Shown piece after piece: positions 54,353 through 62,678 of a stretch of 64,000 nt of DNA. Numbering within the stretch: the first letter of the stretch is position 1; every line of letters starts with the position of its first letter. The translations under genes and the position numbers were made by a program. The stretch is from Pararhizobium sp. IMCC3301. GTDB lineage: Bacteria > Pseudomonadota > Alphaproteobacteria > Rhizobiales > GCA-2746425. Where the stretch lies: positions 1,178,001-1,242,000 of the forward strand of contig NZ_CP132336.1 in NCBI RefSeq assembly GCF_030758315.1, written 5' to 3'. A model generated the notes under the pieces. That model saw only the letters and a program-made list of their open reading frames with translations, was not told where the DNA came from and made no database searches.

Positions 54353-55360
54353 ATGCACATCTGGGTGCTCACCGATGGCAAAGCCGGCGATCTGCAATCC
54401 TGTCTGGGCGTGGCCGAACGGCTTGGTGCAATCTGGACCGCTGATGCCGGCTCTGTGACCATCGAACAGCGCGTTGTCGATCCCAAACCTCCGTGGCTGT
54501 GGCTGATGCCCCATGGCCCGGTCAGCCCATTTGCAAAGCGCGGCTCCCAGGATGATCCGCTGCGACCGCCTTTTCCTGATGTGGCGATTGCCTCCGGCCG
54601 GCGCGCAGTCGCCTATCTGCGAGCCTTGAAACACCGCGCGCCCGGCTGCCTGACCGTATTCCTGAAGGATCCGAAAACCAGCCGTCACGGTGCCGATCTT
54701 GTCTGGGTACCCGGCCACGACCGGCTGAGGGGTGACAATGTGCTGGTCTCGGCTCTGGCCCCTCACCGTATCAGCCCGCAATTACTGGCAGAACGGCGGG
54801 GCCACCCGCCAGCGCACATCTCAAATCTGCCAAAGCCGCGACTTACTGTTGTGCTGGGGGGCCCGGCGCGCAAGACCGTCTATTCGCAGAACGATCTGGC
54901 AGTCTTTGCCTCAGCCCTGTCTCAGCTCGCCGATCAGGCCGCAAGCCTGCTGGTGACCGGCTCCAGGCGCACGCCTGAGATCTGGATGGAGATCATCGAC
55001 AAAATCATGATCGGGCGGCCTGGCCTTGTCTGGACACCGCAAAAAGCAACACCCAATCCCTATCTCGACTTTCTCAGCCATGCCGATGCCCTTGTTGTCA
55101 CCGCCGACAGTCACAATATGGTCAGTGAAGCGCTGGCCACCGGTGTTCCCGTTCATGTTTTTGCCCCCGAAAAACTGTCGCCCAAGCTCGCAGCGTTTGT
55201 GACATCGGTTTTTGCAGATAATCTGGCGGTGCCGATGGGCAAAACGGCGCGGCACAGGCTTGAACTAACGCCGCAGAAGCCGATAGACTCCTCTGCAATC
55301 ATTGCAGAAGAGATTCGCAAACGCCTGAAAACACGCCAAGCCGCGCCAAATGCGCAATGA
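54353..55360 (+). CDS. ELM1 family protein (mitochondrial fission ELM1-like)
   Basis: A 335-residue protein of the ELM1/GTB-like family (DUF1022). MHIWVLTDGKAGDLQSCLGV opens the first Rossmann-like domain, VAIASGRRAVAYLRALKH and PRLTVVLGGPARKTVYSQND follow, and the second domain contains NPYLDFLSHADALVVTADSH and NMVSEALATGVPVHVFAPEK. The fold is glycosyltransferase-like (GT-B), but the bacterial function is unknown; a role in cell envelope has been suggested from context in other genomes. Its stop overlaps an in-frame trxB ATG, so the two are probably coupled. Confidence 0.88.
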   Translation: MHIWVLTDGKAGDLQSCLGVAERLGAIWTADAGSVTIEQRVVDPKPPWLWLMPHGPVSPFAKRGSQDDPLRPPFPDVAIASGRRAVAYLRALKHRAPGCLTVFLKDPKTSRHGADLVWVPGHDRLRGDNVLVSALAPHRISPQLLAERRGHPPAHISNLPKPRLTVVLGGPARKTVYSQNDLAVFASALSQLADQAASLLVTGSRRTPEIWMEIIDKIMIGRPGLVWTPQKATPNPYLDFLSHADALVVTADSHNMVSEALATGVPVHVFAPEKLSPKLAAFVTSVFADNLAVPMGKTARHRLELTPQKPIDSSAIIAEEIRKRLKTRQAAPNAQ

Positions 55361-55371
55361 ATGGAAACAGA

Positions 55372-56337
55372 ATGTCGACCCAGCACGCAAAACTGATCAT
55401 TATCGGCTCAGGTCCTGCAGGATACACTGCTGCCATTTATGCGGCCCGCGCCATGCTTGAGCCGATGCTCATTTCAGGTATCCAGCCCGGTGGACAGTTG
55501 ACCATAACAACAGATGTGGAAAACTACCCGGGGTTTGCCGACACCATTCAGGGGCCCTGGCTGATGGAACAGATGAAGGCGCAGGCAGAGCATGTCGGCA
55601 CCACTATCGTTTCCGATCACATCACATCGGTTGATCTGTCCAAACACCCCATTGAACTGACCGGCGACGGCGGCACGCTTTACACCTGCGACGCACTGGT
55701 TCTGGCGACAGGCGCACAGGCCAAATGGCTTGGACTGCCATCAGAAGAAAAATTTATGGGCTTCGGCGTTTCCGCCTGTGCCACCTGCGATGGATTTTTC
55801 TATCGTGACAAACATGTGCTGGTGGTCGGCGGTGGCAACACTGCCGTCGAAGAGGCGCTTTATCTGGCGAATATCGCAAAAAAAGTGACCGTGGTTCATC
55901 GCCGCGACCATTTCCGTGCGGAGCAGATTCTGCAAAAGCGGTTATTTGCCAAACCGAATATCGAAGTCATCTGGGACAGCTTTGTCGACGAGATTACCGG
56001 AAAGGACGGTTTTCCACCCTCCGCAGAGGGCGTTCGGCTGAAACATATGACAACCGGCGATGTGACGGATTTTCCGGTCGACGGCATATTTGTCGCCATT
56101 GGTCATGCGCCCGCCGCAGACCTCGTCAAGACACAGGTCAAGATGAAGAACAATGGCTATGTCTGGACTGAACCGGACAGCAGCAGAACCAGTATTCCCG
56201 GCGTCTTCGCCGCCGGTGACGTCACCGACGATATTTACCGTCAGGCCGTGACTGCCGCGGGAATGGGCTGCATGGCGGCTCTGGAAGCGGAAAAATACAT
56301 TGCTGAGCTTGCACTTGCCAGAGAAGCAGCCGAATAA
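55372..56337 (+). CDS. trxB: Thioredoxin-disulfide reductase
   Basis: A 321-residue TrxB. KLIIIGSGPAGYTAAIYAAR is the FAD-binding loop, GGQLTITTDVENYPGF a family block, and VSACATCDGFFYRDKHVLVV holds the redox pair (Cys136 and Cys139) before the NADPH loop VVGGGNTAVEEALYLA. GVFAAGDVTDDIYRQAVTAA closes the FAD domain. It keeps thioredoxin reduced using NADPH. I choose the ATG of MSTQHAK (GGAAACAG upstream); an ATG five codons earlier overlaps the ELM1 stop and is possible. The lsrB gene follows 37 bases later. Confidence 0.97.
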   Translation: MSTQHAKLIIIGSGPAGYTAAIYAARAMLEPMLISGIQPGGQLTITTDVENYPGFADTIQGPWLMEQMKAQAEHVGTTIVSDHITSVDLSKHPIELTGDGGTLYTCDALVLATGAQAKWLGLPSEEKFMGFGVSACATCDGFFYRDKHVLVVGGGNTAVEEALYLANIAKKVTVVHRRDHFRAEQILQKRLFAKPNIEVIWDSFVDEITGKDGFPPSAEGVRLKHMTTGDVTDFPVDGIFVAIGHAPAADLVKTQVKMKNNGYVWTEPDSSRTSIPGVFAAGDVTDDIYRQAVTAAGMGCMAALEAEKYIAELALAREAAE

Positions 56338-56374: not shown

Positions 56375-57265
56375 ATGGATTGGGACAAACTCAGAGTATT
56401 TCACGCGGTCGCACAGGCCGGGTCCTTCACCCATGCCGGAGAAGTGTTGCATCTCAGCCAGTCGGCAGCCAGCCGCCAGATCAGCGCTCTTGAGCAGGAC
56501 CTCGGCATTTCATTGTTCCACCGCCATGCGCGTGGTCTGGTTCTGACCGAACAGGGTGAGTTGCTGTTTCGCACTGCGCATGATGTTCTGATGAAGCTTG
56601 AAGCGGTTCAGACCCGGCTGAAGGACAGCAAGGAAAAACCAAGCGGAACTCTGCGGGTCACAACCACGGTTGGCCTCGGCTCCACTTGGCTGGCCGCCCG
56701 CATACGCCGGTTTGTCGAACTCTACCCCGAAATTGAGTTACAGATCCGTCTTGAGGACAATGATTTGAACCTCACTATGCGTGAGGCCGACGTTGCGATC
56801 CGCCTGCATCGTCCCACCGAGCCGGATCTCATTCAGCGCAAACTGTTCACAGTTCATTTTCACGTCTATGCCTCGGCCAAATACCTCAAGACATACGGCC
56901 ATCCGAAGAATCTGGCCGATCTCGACAATCATCAAATCATCGTATTCGGCGAGCCGGTGCCGCATTTTCTGCGCGATATCAACTGGCTGCGAACCGCCGG
57001 GCGTCCTCCTAACGATCCCAGAAAGCCGACACTCACGGTCAACAGTGTGGTGGCCATCAAGGAAGCTGCGGAAAATGGCGCCGGTATCGCCATGGTGCCG
57101 GATTATCTGCTCGATGAGAACAACCAGTTGATCCAGCTGTTCCCCGAAGAGGATGTGCCCTCTCTGGACACCTATTTTGCCTATCCCGCAGAATTGCGCT
57201 CATCAGCACGGGTTCAGGCATTTCGCGATTTCCTGATAGATCAGGCGCAGCGCTGGCGGTTTTAA
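56375..57265 (+). CDS. lsrB: LysR family regulator LsrB/VtlR
   Basis: A 296-residue LysR-type regulator. The N-terminal helix-turn-helix is MDWDKLRVFHAVAQAGSFTH then LHLSQSAASRQISALEQDLG. The effector domain begins TLRVTTTVGLGSTWLAARIR and ends in a basic helix (IDQAQRWRF). Synteny trxB-lsrB and the closeness of an AbcR-like small RNA match LsrB of Agrobacterium and Sinorhizobium and VtlR of Brucella, which control abcR genes, envelope and oxidative-stress functions. It probably activates the small RNA just downstream (candidate site at 57308-57322). Confidence 0.92.
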   Translation: MDWDKLRVFHAVAQAGSFTHAGEVLHLSQSAASRQISALEQDLGISLFHRHARGLVLTEQGELLFRTAHDVLMKLEAVQTRLKDSKEKPSGTLRVTTTVGLGSTWLAARIRRFVELYPEIELQIRLEDNDLNLTMREADVAIRLHRPTEPDLIQRKLFTVHFHVYASAKYLKTYGHPKNLADLDNHQIIVFGEPVPHFLRDINWLRTAGRPPNDPRKPTLTVNSVVAIKEAAENGAGIAMVPDYLLDENNQLIQLFPEEDVPSLDTYFAYPAELRSSARVQAFRDFLIDQAQRWRF

Positions 57266-57307
57266 TCCGTTTCAGCACAGTCAGAATTCATTTGATGTTC
57301 CGGAGCT

Positions 57308-57322
57308 ATGCAGACTTTGCAT
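57308..57322 (+). promoter_or_regulatory. Candidate LysR-type (LsrB) binding dyad
   Basis: ATGCA-GACTT-TGCAT is a 5-base inverted repeat with a 5-base spacer, centred about 65 bases upstream of the predicted start of the small RNA. LysR regulators usually have their recognition site near position -65 with such a short dyad. Binding by LsrB is inferred from this spacing and the neighbour gene. Confidence 0.4.
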
Positions 57323-57344
57323 GGCAGCCACGCAAATGCAGCGC

Positions 57345-57372
57345 TTGAAGATTCACTGAAACGGCGTACATT
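57345..57372 (+). promoter_or_regulatory. Predicted promoter of the AbcR-like small RNA
   Basis: TTGAAG at 57345-57350 and TACATT at 57367-57372 are separated by 16 bases and match sigma-70 boxes moderately. A start at about 57380 would begin the RNA exactly at the first base of the first hairpin (AAGTTAC). Confidence 0.5.
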
Positions 57373-57379
57373 CACTGTG

Positions 57380-57519
57380 TAAGTTACGAAGCAATCGTTC
57401 TCCTCCCTCGATTGCTTCCCATGTAACTTCCTCAAAATTTCTGTTTCGATTCCTCCCCCAGAAACAGAATTTTAAAAACCGGGCTGTTGCTTTTGGCAAT
57501 GCCCGGTTTTATTTTTTTC
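57380..57519 (+). ncRNA. abcR: AbcR-family trans-acting small RNA (alpha-r15 type)
   Basis: Three hairpins follow in order. Hairpin 1: AAGTTAC pairs with GTAACTT (57381-57387 and 57423-57429), enclosing GAAGCAATCG paired with CGATTGCTTC (57388-57397 and 57409-57418); its loop is TTCTCCTCCCT. Hairpin 2: AAAATTTCTGTTTC against GAAACAGAATTTT (57434-57473), with loop GATTCCTCCCCCA. Hairpin 3: a terminator stem AAAACCGGGC/GCCCGGTTTT followed by ATTTTTTT. Unpaired CTCCTCCC-type loops complementary to ribosome-binding sites are the hallmark of AbcR RNAs, which with Hfq repress ABC transporter and other mRNAs. Location just after lsrB matches the known abcR loci. Only one copy is visible. Confidence 0.82.
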
Positions 57520-57604
57520 TGATGCCAGAATCGCTCATGTTCTGCGCGATGAGGTTCAGCAGTGTTTGCCTCTGAGCTGCCAGTTCAAGCCGCCACAATT
57601 CCGG

Positions 57605-58582
57605 CTAGAAATACAACTGCTCTTCCGGGACATCGCTGTAAAGATTCGCGACCTGTTCGCCATAGCCATTATAAAGCTGTGTGGGCACCCGTTCACCACC
57701 AGTGCCCAGAACTTCTTCTGTTGCCTGGCTCCAGCGTTTATGCGGCACCTTCGGATTCACATTTGCGTAAAATCCGTATTCTTTGCTGTTCACTTCTTCC
57801 CAGAACGAAACCGGCCGCTCTTCGGTAAAGCTGACACGGACAATCGATTTGATGGATTTGAAGCCGTATTTCCAGGGTGTGTGCAACCGCAATGGCGCGC
57901 CGAATTGTTTAGCCAGGGGCTTGCCATAGGCACCGGTTGCAATGAAAGCCAGATCATTGGTCGCCTCTGCCATCGTCAGGCCTTCAATATAGGGCCAAGG
58001 ATACCAGATCTGACGCTGACCTGAGGCCATTTTGGAATCGTTGAATGTCTCGAAGCGGACATATTTTGCCGAGGACAGCGGCTGGGCGTAGTCCACCAGT
58101 GCTTTAAGGGGAAAGCCGGACCAGGGAATCACCATCGACCAGGCTTCCACGCAACGATGACGGTAGACCCGGTCTTCCAGTGGCATGGCGCGCACCAGAG
58201 TATCAAAGTCCACCGTCATTTCCTTATCCACGAGACCATCAAACGTCACGGACCAGGGCCGGGTCTTGAGCTTTTGCGCCTCATTGAAAATCCGTTTATG
58301 GGAGCCGAACTCGTAGAAATTATTATATTTTGAATTTACATCTTCCGGGGTAATCGGCTTGCCGGCATCCGCATAGGCCGGGTTCACAGTCGCCGGATAC
58401 AGATCAGCAGTCGGGTCATTTTCGGCCGCCTGCATCGTTCCTGATGGCCACGACAATCCGGCCGCAACGCCAATGCCGCTGAAGCCTGCGGCCTTGATCA
58501 GGGTGCGGCGGTTGAGAAAGGTGGCTTCGCTTGAAGCCTTGTTTTCCGGGATTTCCCAACTTTTGGGGCGTTTAATGAACAT
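57605..58582 (-). CDS. msrP: Periplasmic methionine sulfoxide reductase catalytic subunit MsrP
   Basis: A 325-residue molybdoenzyme exported by Tat. The N-terminus has FLNRRTLIKAAGFSGIGVAA with the twin arginine and a hydrophobic stretch. The molybdopterin domain includes SVTFDGLVDKEMTVDFDTLV, VYRHRCVEAWSMVIPWSGFP with the Mo-ligating cysteine, and LRLHTPWKYGFKSIKSIVRV. It repairs oxidised methionine in periplasmic proteins, with electrons from the membrane subunit MsrQ, which I do not see adjacent on either side. It is divergent from the first PaaK-like gene. Confidence 0.95.
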   Translation of the reverse strand: MFIKRPKSWEIPENKASSEATFLNRRTLIKAAGFSGIGVAAGLSWPSGTMQAAENDPTADLYPATVNPAYADAGKPITPEDVNSKYNNFYEFGSHKRIFNEAQKLKTRPWSVTFDGLVDKEMTVDFDTLVRAMPLEDRVYRHRCVEAWSMVIPWSGFPLKALVDYAQPLSSAKYVRFETFNDSKMASGQRQIWYPWPYIEGLTMAEATNDLAFIATGAYGKPLAKQFGAPLRLHTPWKYGFKSIKSIVRVSFTEERPVSFWEEVNSKEYGFYANVNPKVPHKRWSQATEEVLGTGGERVPTQLYNGYGEQVANLYSDVPEEQLYF

Positions 58583-58709
58583 GGTGTTCCCTTTTTGCTG
58601 TCATTGCCGATACAATTGGAACAACTCACATGAAAATCAAATAAACTGTTGGTGAGGTGAGCGTGTTCTGTCAGTTCGCAAACCAGTTCAAATGAAGCCC
58701 GGAGCGTTA

Positions 58710-60014
58710 ATGTCAGTCTCACTCGAAGCGTCGCGGAAATTCGTGACGGTGCTTGAGAAAACCCAATATTATCCACCCGATCGGATGCAGGCCTATCAGC
58801 GCCGGCTGCTGCAGCCGCTGCTGCACCATGCCCGGCGCGAGGTGCCGTTCTATGCCACACGGCTGGACCCGCTATTCGCTCCAGACCAGTCAATCCGCTG
58901 GGAGGCCTGGAATGATATTCCAACGTTCACCCGAGCTGACGCACAACAGGCCGGAGATGCGCTGTTTGCAAAATCATATCCGGAGCAAATGGGACCTTTT
59001 TCCGAAGGCCAGACCTCCGGCTCGACAGGAACTCCGTTGAAATTCCGTACCACTGGCATGGCTCAGCTGATGGCCACAGCTGCATCGCAACGGATTTTCG
59101 ATTGGCACGCGGTGGATTGCTCCGCGAAAATGGCTATCATTGCCGATTCTCGCGGCCGATATCCCGCTCCCGACGGAGCGCCAGGCCGGCAATGGAACAT
59201 CACCAAGCCAGAAGCACCTGCCTGCCAGCTATCCGTCACCGAGACCATTGAAAACCAGTTGGAATGGATACTGAAAACCCGGCCGGGAGCAGTGACCAGT
59301 TATCCCTCGATTGCGGTTGCCCTGGGCGAGCTTGCCGAACAACGCGGCATTGCTCTGCCGTTTCACACTTTCGTCGGTCAGGGAGAAGTCTTCAGCGATG
59401 CGGCCAAGACCTATCTTGCCGGGACGCACGGTTTGAAACTCATTGACCGTTATGGCGCATCGGAACTGGGCGCCATTGCGGCGCAATGCCCGGCCGGCAG
59501 CCTGCACCATCAATTCTGTGAAGCGGGCCTGATGGAAGTGCTGGATTTCGACGATGGCAAATCCATCACTGATGGCCGCGGACGGCTGATTCTGACACCC
59601 TTCTACAATTACGCGATGCCCCTCATCCGCTATGAAAATCAGGATCAGGTTGAATTGACATCACAAGCCTGCATCTGTGGCCGCACACTGCCCTCTATCC
59701 AACAGATTCTCGGCCGCGAAAGAAACGTCTTTACCTATGCCGATGGCAGCCGGTCGTGGCCTTCCATGCTGGAAGGTGAATATCAACCATTTCTACCATC
59801 ACGACAGATTCAGGGCATTCAGAAAAGCCTGCGCGACGTCGAAATCCGTTTCGTGCGCGATGAGGCCAGCTCACAGCAGGTCGATCAGCCAGGACTGCAG
59901 ACATATCTGCGCACGCGCCTGCACCCGTCGATCACGATTGACATCTTCGAAACACCGGAAATCCCGCGCAGTGCATCAGGCAAATATGAACAATGGATCA
60001 CGCTTGTGCGGTGA
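58710..60014 (+). CDS. PaaK/CapK-like adenylate-forming enzyme, copy 1
   Basis: A 434-residue member of the phenylacetate-CoA ligase/CapK (F390 synthetase-like) family. The ATP loop reads GQTSGSTGTPLKFRTTGMAQ. Other blocks are RIFDWHAVDCSAKMAIIADS, LKLIDRYGASELGAIAAQCP (adenine-binding YGASE) and GRLILTPFYNYAMPLIRYEN. The C-terminal part ends with SASGKYEQWI, near the family Lys. Such enzymes activate a carboxylate with ATP; substrates here are unknown. GGAG lies seven bases before the ATG, which decides the start. It is the first of three paralogs alternating with outer-membrane protein genes. Confidence 0.86.
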   Translation: MSVSLEASRKFVTVLEKTQYYPPDRMQAYQRRLLQPLLHHARREVPFYATRLDPLFAPDQSIRWEAWNDIPTFTRADAQQAGDALFAKSYPEQMGPFSEGQTSGSTGTPLKFRTTGMAQLMATAASQRIFDWHAVDCSAKMAIIADSRGRYPAPDGAPGRQWNITKPEAPACQLSVTETIENQLEWILKTRPGAVTSYPSIAVALGELAEQRGIALPFHTFVGQGEVFSDAAKTYLAGTHGLKLIDRYGASELGAIAAQCPAGSLHHQFCEAGLMEVLDFDDGKSITDGRGRLILTPFYNYAMPLIRYENQDQVELTSQACICGRTLPSIQQILGRERNVFTYADGSRSWPSMLEGEYQPFLPSRQIQGIQKSLRDVEIRFVRDEASSQQVDQPGLQTYLRTRLHPSITIDIFETPEIPRSASGKYEQWITLVR

Positions 60015-61379: not shown

Positions 61380-62678
61380 ATGAACGACGGCTACGACCGC
61401 TATGTGTCTTTGCTCAGTCAGAGCCAGCATTTTCCCGCCGCGCGTCTGAAAGCTCTCCAGATGCGCGGTCTGAACCGCTTTCTCCAGCACGCACGCGATC
61501 ATGTGCCCGCCTACCGCGAGCGATTGTCGCCACTGTTCGAAACCGGCGCTGACCCCGATTTTTCCCGATGGGAAGAGGTGCCTGTGCTGACCCGGGGGCA
61601 AGTGCAGCTTGAATCACGCGAATTGCGAGCTGCAAGCGTACCGCGACAGGCGGGTGCCGCGCAGACCAAACACACGTCTGGCTCCACCGGAACGCCACTC
61701 ATTCACCACCGTAGCCGCCTTCAGCATGCGGCCAATCAGGCGGTTCTGGACCGGCTTTACAACTAGCATGATATTGACGGCAATAAAGCTCTGGCGGTGC
61801 TCGCGACAGCGTACAACAACCCGGCCCCTTACCCGCAAGGGTCTGCCGCCAGCCAATGGCGGCACGGTTGCGAAGACGGCCAGTCGTTCCAATTGGACAT
61901 CATGACTGCGACCACAGACCAGCAGTTGGAATGGCTTTGCCGACAGGATGTGTCCTATCTCACCACCGCGCCCAACAATGCCCGCGCATTGATCGAAACA
62001 GCTGCAGAATCCGGAAAGGCATTGCCGCCTCTGGAGGCCATCATGCTGAGCGGCGAAGTGCTGGAAGCTGAAACCCGGGAGGTCATTGCGCAGGCGTTTG
62101 GCGGTGCAGTGATTAATTTGTATGGGGCCAGCGAATCCGGTCGACTGGCCGCAACCTGCCCGGAGCATGACGGGCTTCACCTTCATGAAGAGATCAGCTT
62201 TCTGGAAGTGGTTGACGAGCAGGGTCGCGCACTGCCGCCTGGGCAGACCGGCCGAATTCTGACCACATCGTTTTACAATTTCGCCATGCCTCTGATCCGC
62301 TACGCCCTCGGCGATTTTGGTGCGATTTCCGAAGCACCCTGTCTTTGCGGCCGCTCCAGCCGGACGCTCAAATTCGTTGCCGGTCGCCAGAGAAACCTGT
62401 TCCGGTTCATCGATGGCACAACGAAATGGCCGGATATGAAAATGAAGGATTTGCGATCAATCTACCCGTTCCGGCAGATGCAGGTGGTTCAGGACCGGAT
62501 CGATCATCTAACGGTTCACATGGTAGAAAGTGTTGCCGGCTGTGACATTGATCACGACGCCTTGCAGGCGGTATTCCGAAAATCCCTGCATCCGTCGCTG
62601 AGCATCACAATCCGGCGCTGCGAAGAAATCAGCCGCTCGTCGGGGGGAAAGTTCGAAGATTTCGTATCAAAAATTTAG
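61380..62678 (+). pseudogene. PaaK/CapK-like enzyme, copy 2, interrupted by one amber codon
   Basis: The frame runs 432 codons from MNDGYDRYVSLLSQSQHF to a stop at 62676 and matches copy 1 along its whole length: KHTSGSTGTPLIHHRS (ATP loop), VINLYGASESGRLAATCPEH and GRILTTSFYNFAMPLIRYAL. It is interrupted by TAG at 61764-61766 after RLYN. Copy 1 has Trp at the equivalent place (RIFDWHAVD against RLYN-stop-HDID), so a single TGG to TAG change explains it. Both halves stay in the same frame with no other damage. It may be a recent pseudogene, a sequencing error or, less likely, a readthrough site. Confidence 0.82.

Follow-up and report, generated by a model that had tools for sequence, protein, structure and literature searches.

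The window (the whole 64-kb stretch of DNA analysed here) carries the genes trxB, lsrB and msrP in close succession. The 339-nt gap at 57266-57604, from the lsrB stop to the end of the convergent msrP, holds a predicted small RNA (sRNA) of approximately 140 nt. The features of this locus are as follows, with the basis of each in brackets.

55357-56337, + strand: trxB, thioredoxin reductase, a syntenic marker (ORF; TIGR01292, 406 bits)
56375-57265, + strand: lsrB/vtlR orthologue, LysR-type regulator (ORF; homology, synteny, literature)
57308-57331, + strand: putative LsrB-type box, ATGCA-N5-TGCAT (57308-57322) overlapping GCATGGCAGCCAC (57319-57331) (sequence; consensus reported in PMC8844928 and PMC7486931)
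57344-57372, + strand: candidate promoter, -35 CTTGAA (57344-57349) and -10 TACATT (57367-57372) (alignment with congeners and relatives)
57380-57520, + strand: small RNA of about 140 nt, start and end inferred (fold, conservation, covariation)
57381-57429, + strand: hairpin SL1 (sequence, fold, covariation)
57398-57408, + strand: SL1 loop UUCUCCUCCCU
57400-57407, + strand: first anti-Shine-Dalgarno motif (aSD1) CUCCUCCC in the SL1 loop
57430-57438, + strand: linker UUCCUCAAAA, which starts with UUCC (sequence set beside canonical AbcR)
57439-57469, + strand: hairpin SL2 (sequence, fold, covariation)
57448-57460, + strand: SL2 loop GAUUCCUCCCCCA
57451-57458, + strand: second aSD UCCUCCCC in the SL2 loop
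57475-57519, + strand: intrinsic terminator, bulged stem (57475-57510) and U-rich tail (fold, covariation)
57605-58582, - strand: msrP, convergent, downstream boundary of the interval (ORF; NF003767, 412 bits)

The name lsrB was assigned from homology, synteny and published work, as none of the NCBIfam models scored above its cut-off on 56375-57265. Of the 249 genomes of the order, 228 had an LsrB orthologue at E<=1e-80. No ORF of at least 80 codons with an ATG, GTG or TTG start lies over the sRNA, and Rfam at gathering threshold returned one tRNA and nothing else over the 64-kb window. On the far side of msrP, a 440-aa frame at 58692-60014 resembles a phenylacetate-CoA ligase but had no Pfam match at E<=0.001; a similar frame follows at 61380-62678.

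The computed fold of 57380-57520 consists of three hairpins with an energy of -51.9 kcal/mol. Dinucleotide shuffles of the same stretch (n = 200) gave a mean of -20.6 and a standard deviation of 3.1, which places the RNA at z -10.2, and none of the 200 was as good. The third hairpin is the terminator, followed by AUUUUUUU. Its loop holds no aSD, leaving the motif in two of the three loops. A simple terminator scan found none in the interval; the terminator stem has a one-base bulge.

The sRNA was found in all five genomes of the source genus, and the order lsrB-sRNA is kept in each. It was recovered by blastn in four of them, with three copies in the congener G002 and no second copy in the window's genome. 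The fifth, G001, carries a diverged copy at the same place that scored 41.6 bits with R1, a model of the sRNA of the source genus. All seven copies lie downstream of lsrB with their own promoter elements. In G002 (locus L017), the three copies stand in tandem after lsrB at oriented positions 2536, 2826 and 3152, and a separate GCAT box, CTTG and -10 precede each of them. In G004 (locus L015, approximately 2392-2670), the gap between lsrB and the sRNA is about 230 nt longer. This extra sequence is bounded by an inverted repeat, TAGAGCCTTTCTTGTTT.../...AACAAGAAAGGCTCTA, and looks like a small mobile or repeat element.

Among the seven copies, 14 of the 35 base pairs have changed on both sides. 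This count was reached in none of 500 shuffles, and slid partners gave 2-4. In the alignment, 95.8% of cells pair, a figure to be read with the fact that the alignment was fitted to the model and leans towards it, a bias bounded by the shuffled and slid controls. The stem of SL1 and the terminator account for most of the changes; SL2 hardly varies and is therefore less informative on covariation. When R1 was run over 397 genomes of the order, strong matches (138-166 bits) were obtained only in four genomes of the genus, under a stricter genome-wide filter that lost G001. Outside the genus, seven genomes gave 21-33 bits, with 8 candidates scored per genome. The best of these, in G083, was rejected as an ordinary ar14 RNA away from lsrB.

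Much of the initial annotation of this interval was borne out by these results. It had placed an sRNA directly downstream of lsrB in trxB/lsrB synteny, and the order trxB-lsrB-sRNA is present in the window. The three hairpins that it described agree with both the fold and the covariation, and its two aSD-type loops are UUCUCCUCCCU and GAUUCCUCCCCCA. The rho-independent terminator that it named is the third hairpin with its U-rich tail. The RNA of about 140 nt from 57380 matches the folded stretch in size, and the statement that the genome has a single copy agrees with blastn.

The upstream region suggests regulation by LsrB. The annotated promoter is supported in its elements, CTTG at 57344 and TACATT at 57367-57372, by comparison with relatives; a sigma-70 scan of the interval region did not find it and returned one unrelated site (57165-57194) at chance level. 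The GCATGGCAGCCAC part of the box fits five of the seven fixed letters of GCAT-N3-TG-N3-T, and the box of G001 fits all seven. GCAT stands at -61 in six of the seven sRNA copies and at -62 in G001, and its spacing to CTTG is 25 nt in all seven. At 16 canonical abcR loci, the spacing is likewise 25 nt in 13 (12 with CTTG and one with ATTGT), 23 nt in two (with CTATAG) and was not found in one. The paired MmgR loci of the genus do not show the GCAT-CTTG spacing. In S. meliloti, the LsrB site of the abcR1 promoter has been reported at -61 to -49 (PMC8844928). LsrB has also been reported to activate NfeR1 (ar14) in that species, from a motif at -72 to -60 (PMC10746234), and an ar14 copy of the relative G083 (locus L056) has an upstream sequence similar to the LsrB motif. 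The box thus marks an LsrB target and not AbcR as such, since LsrB activates NfeR1 too. With lsrB encoded directly upstream, LsrB would be the activator of the sRNA in 57266-57604.

AbcR RNAs act as a hub in the control of nutrient uptake in several Alphaproteobacteria. In A. tumefaciens, AbcR has been described as encoded downstream of trxB-lsrB (PMC7486931). The RNA has been reported to have three stem-loops and two aSD motifs (PMC7143759), of which aSD2 (UUCCCCUC) is part of an ultraconserved stretch, after SL1 and before SL2 (PMC8844928). The relatives examined here largely follow this pattern. Among the 25 best-scoring lsrB loci outside the genus, an AbcR core follows lsrB within 1.5 kb in 20 and is lacking there in five. 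Canonical AbcR in these relatives reads CAGCUG, a CUCCUCCC-type loop and CAGCUG-UUCCCCUCUGG, followed by SL2 and the terminator. The motif CAGCUGUUCCCCUCUG is identical in all 16 aligned AbcR sequences, which had been selected using part of it. Canonical AbcR is also present in L069, a MAG labelled Cohaesibacter. A stricter core pattern, run on the best 80 of 531 relatives, was unsuited to Mesorhizobium-type AbcR; it left 39 of 80 loci without a match to the start, and its tally was not used.

In a tree of LsrB and TrxB with 43 rows, the AbcR core is present in 34 of the 41 rows outside the genus (the search covered 1.5 kb past lsrB, or as much as 5.2 kb for named records). A group with support 99/97 takes in the genus, and L039, which bears the core, branches off first within it; the group without L039 is supported at 95/71, and the root serves for drawing only. 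The genus is nested among core-bearing lineages, which would make canonical AbcR the likely ancestral state at the lsrB locus. In family f28, the 1.5 kb downstream of lsrB holds no AbcR core in L022 and L024, and L021, L035 and L036 have the core or a variant. This may be another loss or move of AbcR.

The conserved UUCCCCUCUGG element is absent from the sRNA of the genus. In the window's genome, the core CAGCTGTTCCCCTCTGG has no site within two mismatches; at three mismatches there are 14 sites, compared with 8 for the reversed control. Three of the 14 were looked at. The sole site that keeps TTCCCCTCTGG (97089) was rejected, as it falls within open frames longer than 130 codons. The sRNA retains SL1 with its aSD1 and closing stem, and UUCC comes next, without the remainder of aSD2. 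The UUCC that opens the linker is possibly a remnant of AbcR aSD2, if its letters are homologous.

Covariance models were less decisive. A search with the Rfam AbcR/alpha-r15 model (ar15, RF02345) had been named beforehand as a test of the annotation. It went against the proposal, giving no match at E<=10 in the interval and none at E<=1 in the loci of four congeners, with a model that is itself insensitive. At its cut-off, ar15 matched three of 20 lsrB loci (five of the 20 being from the source genus) and missed clear AbcR genes; it matched five of ten related loci with an AbcR core at E<=0.1 (28-49 bits). The missing core therefore outweighs the missing ar15 match. On the same ten loci, ar14 had no match at E<=0.1, a threshold that at this search size hides matches below about 30 bits. 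The AbcR identity proposed in the initial annotation was thus upheld for the locus, the LsrB-type box, the three hairpins, the two aSD motifs, the terminator and the size, and not for the RNA body, which has neither the UUCCCCUCUGG core nor an ar15 match.

The best Rfam match of the sRNA is to ar14 (NfeR1, RF02344); the copy in the window scores 28.1 bits, and the cut-off is 58.8. The four congeners gave 27.2-32.4 bits with one copy each, and two of the three G002 copies were not among the matches listed. An ordinary ar14 of the relative G083 (L056) scored 67-71 bits. Two such RNAs stand there in tandem (914-1040 and 1509-1634), and the frame directly ahead of the first looks, judged only by eye, like a DUF1127 protein, such as is encoded beside CcsR RNAs. 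Whole-genome searches with ar15 and ar14 found nothing; these negatives are weak, since the ar14 search also missed the sRNA at 57380-57520. The remaining Rfam hits at E<=10 in this interval, to ylbH, L20 leader, Leu leader and two eukaryotic families, were far below cut-off and were taken as chance.

R2, a model of canonical AbcR, scored 12-21 bits on the genus copies and 7 on that of G001; the third G002 copy was not among the matches listed. On MmgR it scored 15-18 bits, overlapping the genus copies, and the sRNA body therefore has no specific AbcR homology by this measure. R2 finds many more AbcR genes than ar15, and it scores bare terminators as well. Its matches in 196 of 397 genomes are an inflated count, since the one in G001 is a terminator. 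With 150 candidates scored per genome, the sRNA itself was absent from those listed, and the 14 places viewed in the five genus genomes (L171 on the wrong strand) were rejected as terminator hairpins without the core. A paired-aSD pattern recovered MmgR and this sRNA in each genome of the genus, plus one further pair in G003 (C9:47878), and no ordinary ar14 elsewhere in the genus. MmgR itself (RF00519) is ordinary, at 66.0 bits in the window's genome and 56-69 bits across the three genomes scanned. In G003 (L149), two MmgR (suhB) genes stand in tandem at 1514-1590 and 1888-1964. Taken together, ar15 gives no match, the ar14 and R2 scores are weak or overlapping, and the models therefore do not settle descent.

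The predicted targets point to nutrient uptake. The genome has an hfq gene (110.8 bits). The pattern GGGAGGAG-N4-11-ATG occurs at 11 sites in the genome, compared with three for the reversed control. At four of the 11 sites a gene of 269-497 aa begins, and all four belong to loci of sugar uptake or sugar catabolism: they encode an SBP_bac_1 protein, an ABC ATPase, an FGGY kinase and a SorC-type sugar-binding regulator. The ABC ATPase is at C1:1306785 of the genome, the SBP at 746576 and the SorC-type regulator at 1887677. The ABC ATPase site matches all 11 nt of loop 1, and the SorC-type gene is divergent from an apparent ABC sugar transporter (operon neighbours read by eye). As for the other seven sites, one belongs to an FAA-hydrolase frame and probably lies inside the gene, one is on the opposite strand of MmgR, and five stay open for at most 17 codons.

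Pairing was also scored for 412 genes, called by a rough script in 20 stretches plus the window. Uptake transport (SBPs, permeases, TRAP/TTT parts) accounts for 10 of the 30 best-pairing genes. Among 90 of the other 382 genes, at least five are transport genes (four ABC_tran and one Peripla_BP_5, with 25 of 121 families listed). Fisher's test gives p = 0.0003 with five background transport genes and 0.018 if 12 are assumed. The signal is partly plain Shine-Dalgarno strength, because 12 of these 30 genes rank among the best 30 for the 16S tail as well. ABC-transporter mRNAs have been reported to make up 35-45% of the top predicted AbcR targets (PMC7143759). The sRNA probably represses uptake-transporter mRNAs.

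The regulator also differs from its A. tumefaciens counterpart. LsrB of A. tumefaciens has been described as a thiol switch, with C144 and C273 conserved in S. meliloti and B. abortus (PMC11975290). Judged from the offset, these residues probably correspond to positions 140 and 269 of the window's LsrB, which has no cysteine at all. The A. tumefaciens-type thiol switch is therefore not available to it. Cysteine-free LsrB was found in 24 of the 108 sequences examined, including all five of the source genus.

The explanation that we favour, with a probability of about 0.6, is that the locus encodes an LsrB-activated, trans-acting aSD RNA, which is the positional counterpart of abcR1, descended from AbcR with its 3' half rebuilt. 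For an LsrB-linked aSD RNA that acts on uptake genes, whatever its descent, our confidence is high. In the proposed mechanism, LsrB would bind the box at -61 and start transcription from about 57380. The resulting RNA would display two aSD loops, pairing, probably with Hfq, to G-rich ribosome-binding sites, and translation of the paired uptake-transporter and catabolic mRNAs would be blocked. The ancestor would have been a canonical AbcR whose aSD1 lay in the loop of SL1 and whose aSD2 (UUCCCCUCUGG) lay in the linker. The source genus would have lost this linker element, keeping at most UUCC behind SL1, and a second hairpin, which displays an aSD in its loop, may have taken over from it.

Could the RNA have come from elsewhere? 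An alpha-r14 (NfeR1)-type RNA may have displaced AbcR behind the LsrB-responsive promoter, acting in the same way and not descending from AbcR. We consider this unlikely, while taking it seriously: ar14 is the only Rfam family with consistent matches (27-32 bits, one copy in each of the five genomes), an aSD in hairpin loops with variable stems has been described as the alpha-r14 style, NfeR1 has an LsrB site as well (PMC10746234), and the paired-aSD pattern shows no ordinary ar14 elsewhere in the genus. However, every ar14 score is about half of the cut-off that the relative's ar14 exceeds, there is no third aSD in the terminator loop, loop 1 reads UCUCCUCCC and not CCUCCUCCC, and the sRNA sits at the abcR place. 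A bolder version seems to us slightly more doubtful still. It holds that AbcR was swapped wholesale for an alpha-r14-type aSD RNA behind an LsrB-type promoter. The uptake network of the genus would then be run by a hybrid of two RNA families, neither of them the canonical original, under a cysteine-free LsrB unable to use the Agrobacterium thiol switch.

An ordinary, if divergent, member of AbcR/alpha-r15 would account for the place, the promoter, the size and an SL1 with a CUCCUCCC loop. It is improbable given the lack of an ar15 match, the UUCCCCUCUGG core missing from the RNA, the lack of CAGCTGTTCCCCTCTGG within two mismatches in the genome and a second aSD placed in a hairpin loop. We give very little credence to the idea that there is no separate RNA and that the interval is the 3' end of the lsrB transcript, with a terminator and chance hairpins. 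The strand, the position 3' of lsrB, the terminator at the end and a generic promoter scan that missed the candidate promoter would all suit it. Against it stand the fold at z -10.2, covarying stems with kept loops, and three copies in G002 with promoter elements of their own.

With descent from AbcR as the preferred reading, a genus that keeps the place and promoter geometry and changes the RNA offers a natural test. Is it the LsrB input, the loop-displayed aSD or the linker aSD2 that counts? The three tandem copies of G002 provide a ready comparison of paralogues. The locus also illustrates that synteny and covariance models can disagree, and aSD RNAs at lsrB can therefore be missed or misnamed. 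The accessible portions of the literature on AbcR, NfeR1 and LsrB (including PMC3712013 and PMC3927594) do not describe a rebuilt RNA at the AbcR locus; a review of AbcR evolution (PMC5752129) lies outside that scope.

Several known RNAs share features with the sRNA. The CcsR1 or cuckoo RNAs (RF02791) also have CU-rich aSD loops, but they gave no match in the interval at E<=10, and a weak overlap was seen only on the ar14 of the relative. MmgR/suhB is likewise an aSD-bearing RNA of the same genomes, but it has a separate locus and an ordinary match. NfeR1 has been described with three hairpins and CCUCCUCCC in each loop (PMC10746234). The sRNA resembles it in its aSD-bearing hairpin loops, a weak full-length match (27-32 bits) and the activation of NfeR1 by LsrB in S. 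meliloti. It differs in having two aSD loops instead of three, a terminator loop without an aSD, scores at about half the cut-off and a place unlike that of the ar14 genes in G083. From AbcR1/AbcR2 the sRNA differs in lacking the CAGCUG-UUCCCCUCUGG linker element, in carrying its second aSD in the SL2 loop and in having no ar15 match. It shares with them the place after trxB-lsrB, three stem-loops, CUCCUCCC in the SL1 loop, two aSD motifs, an LsrB-type box at -61 with equal spacing to the -35 and, in all likelihood, uptake transporters as targets.
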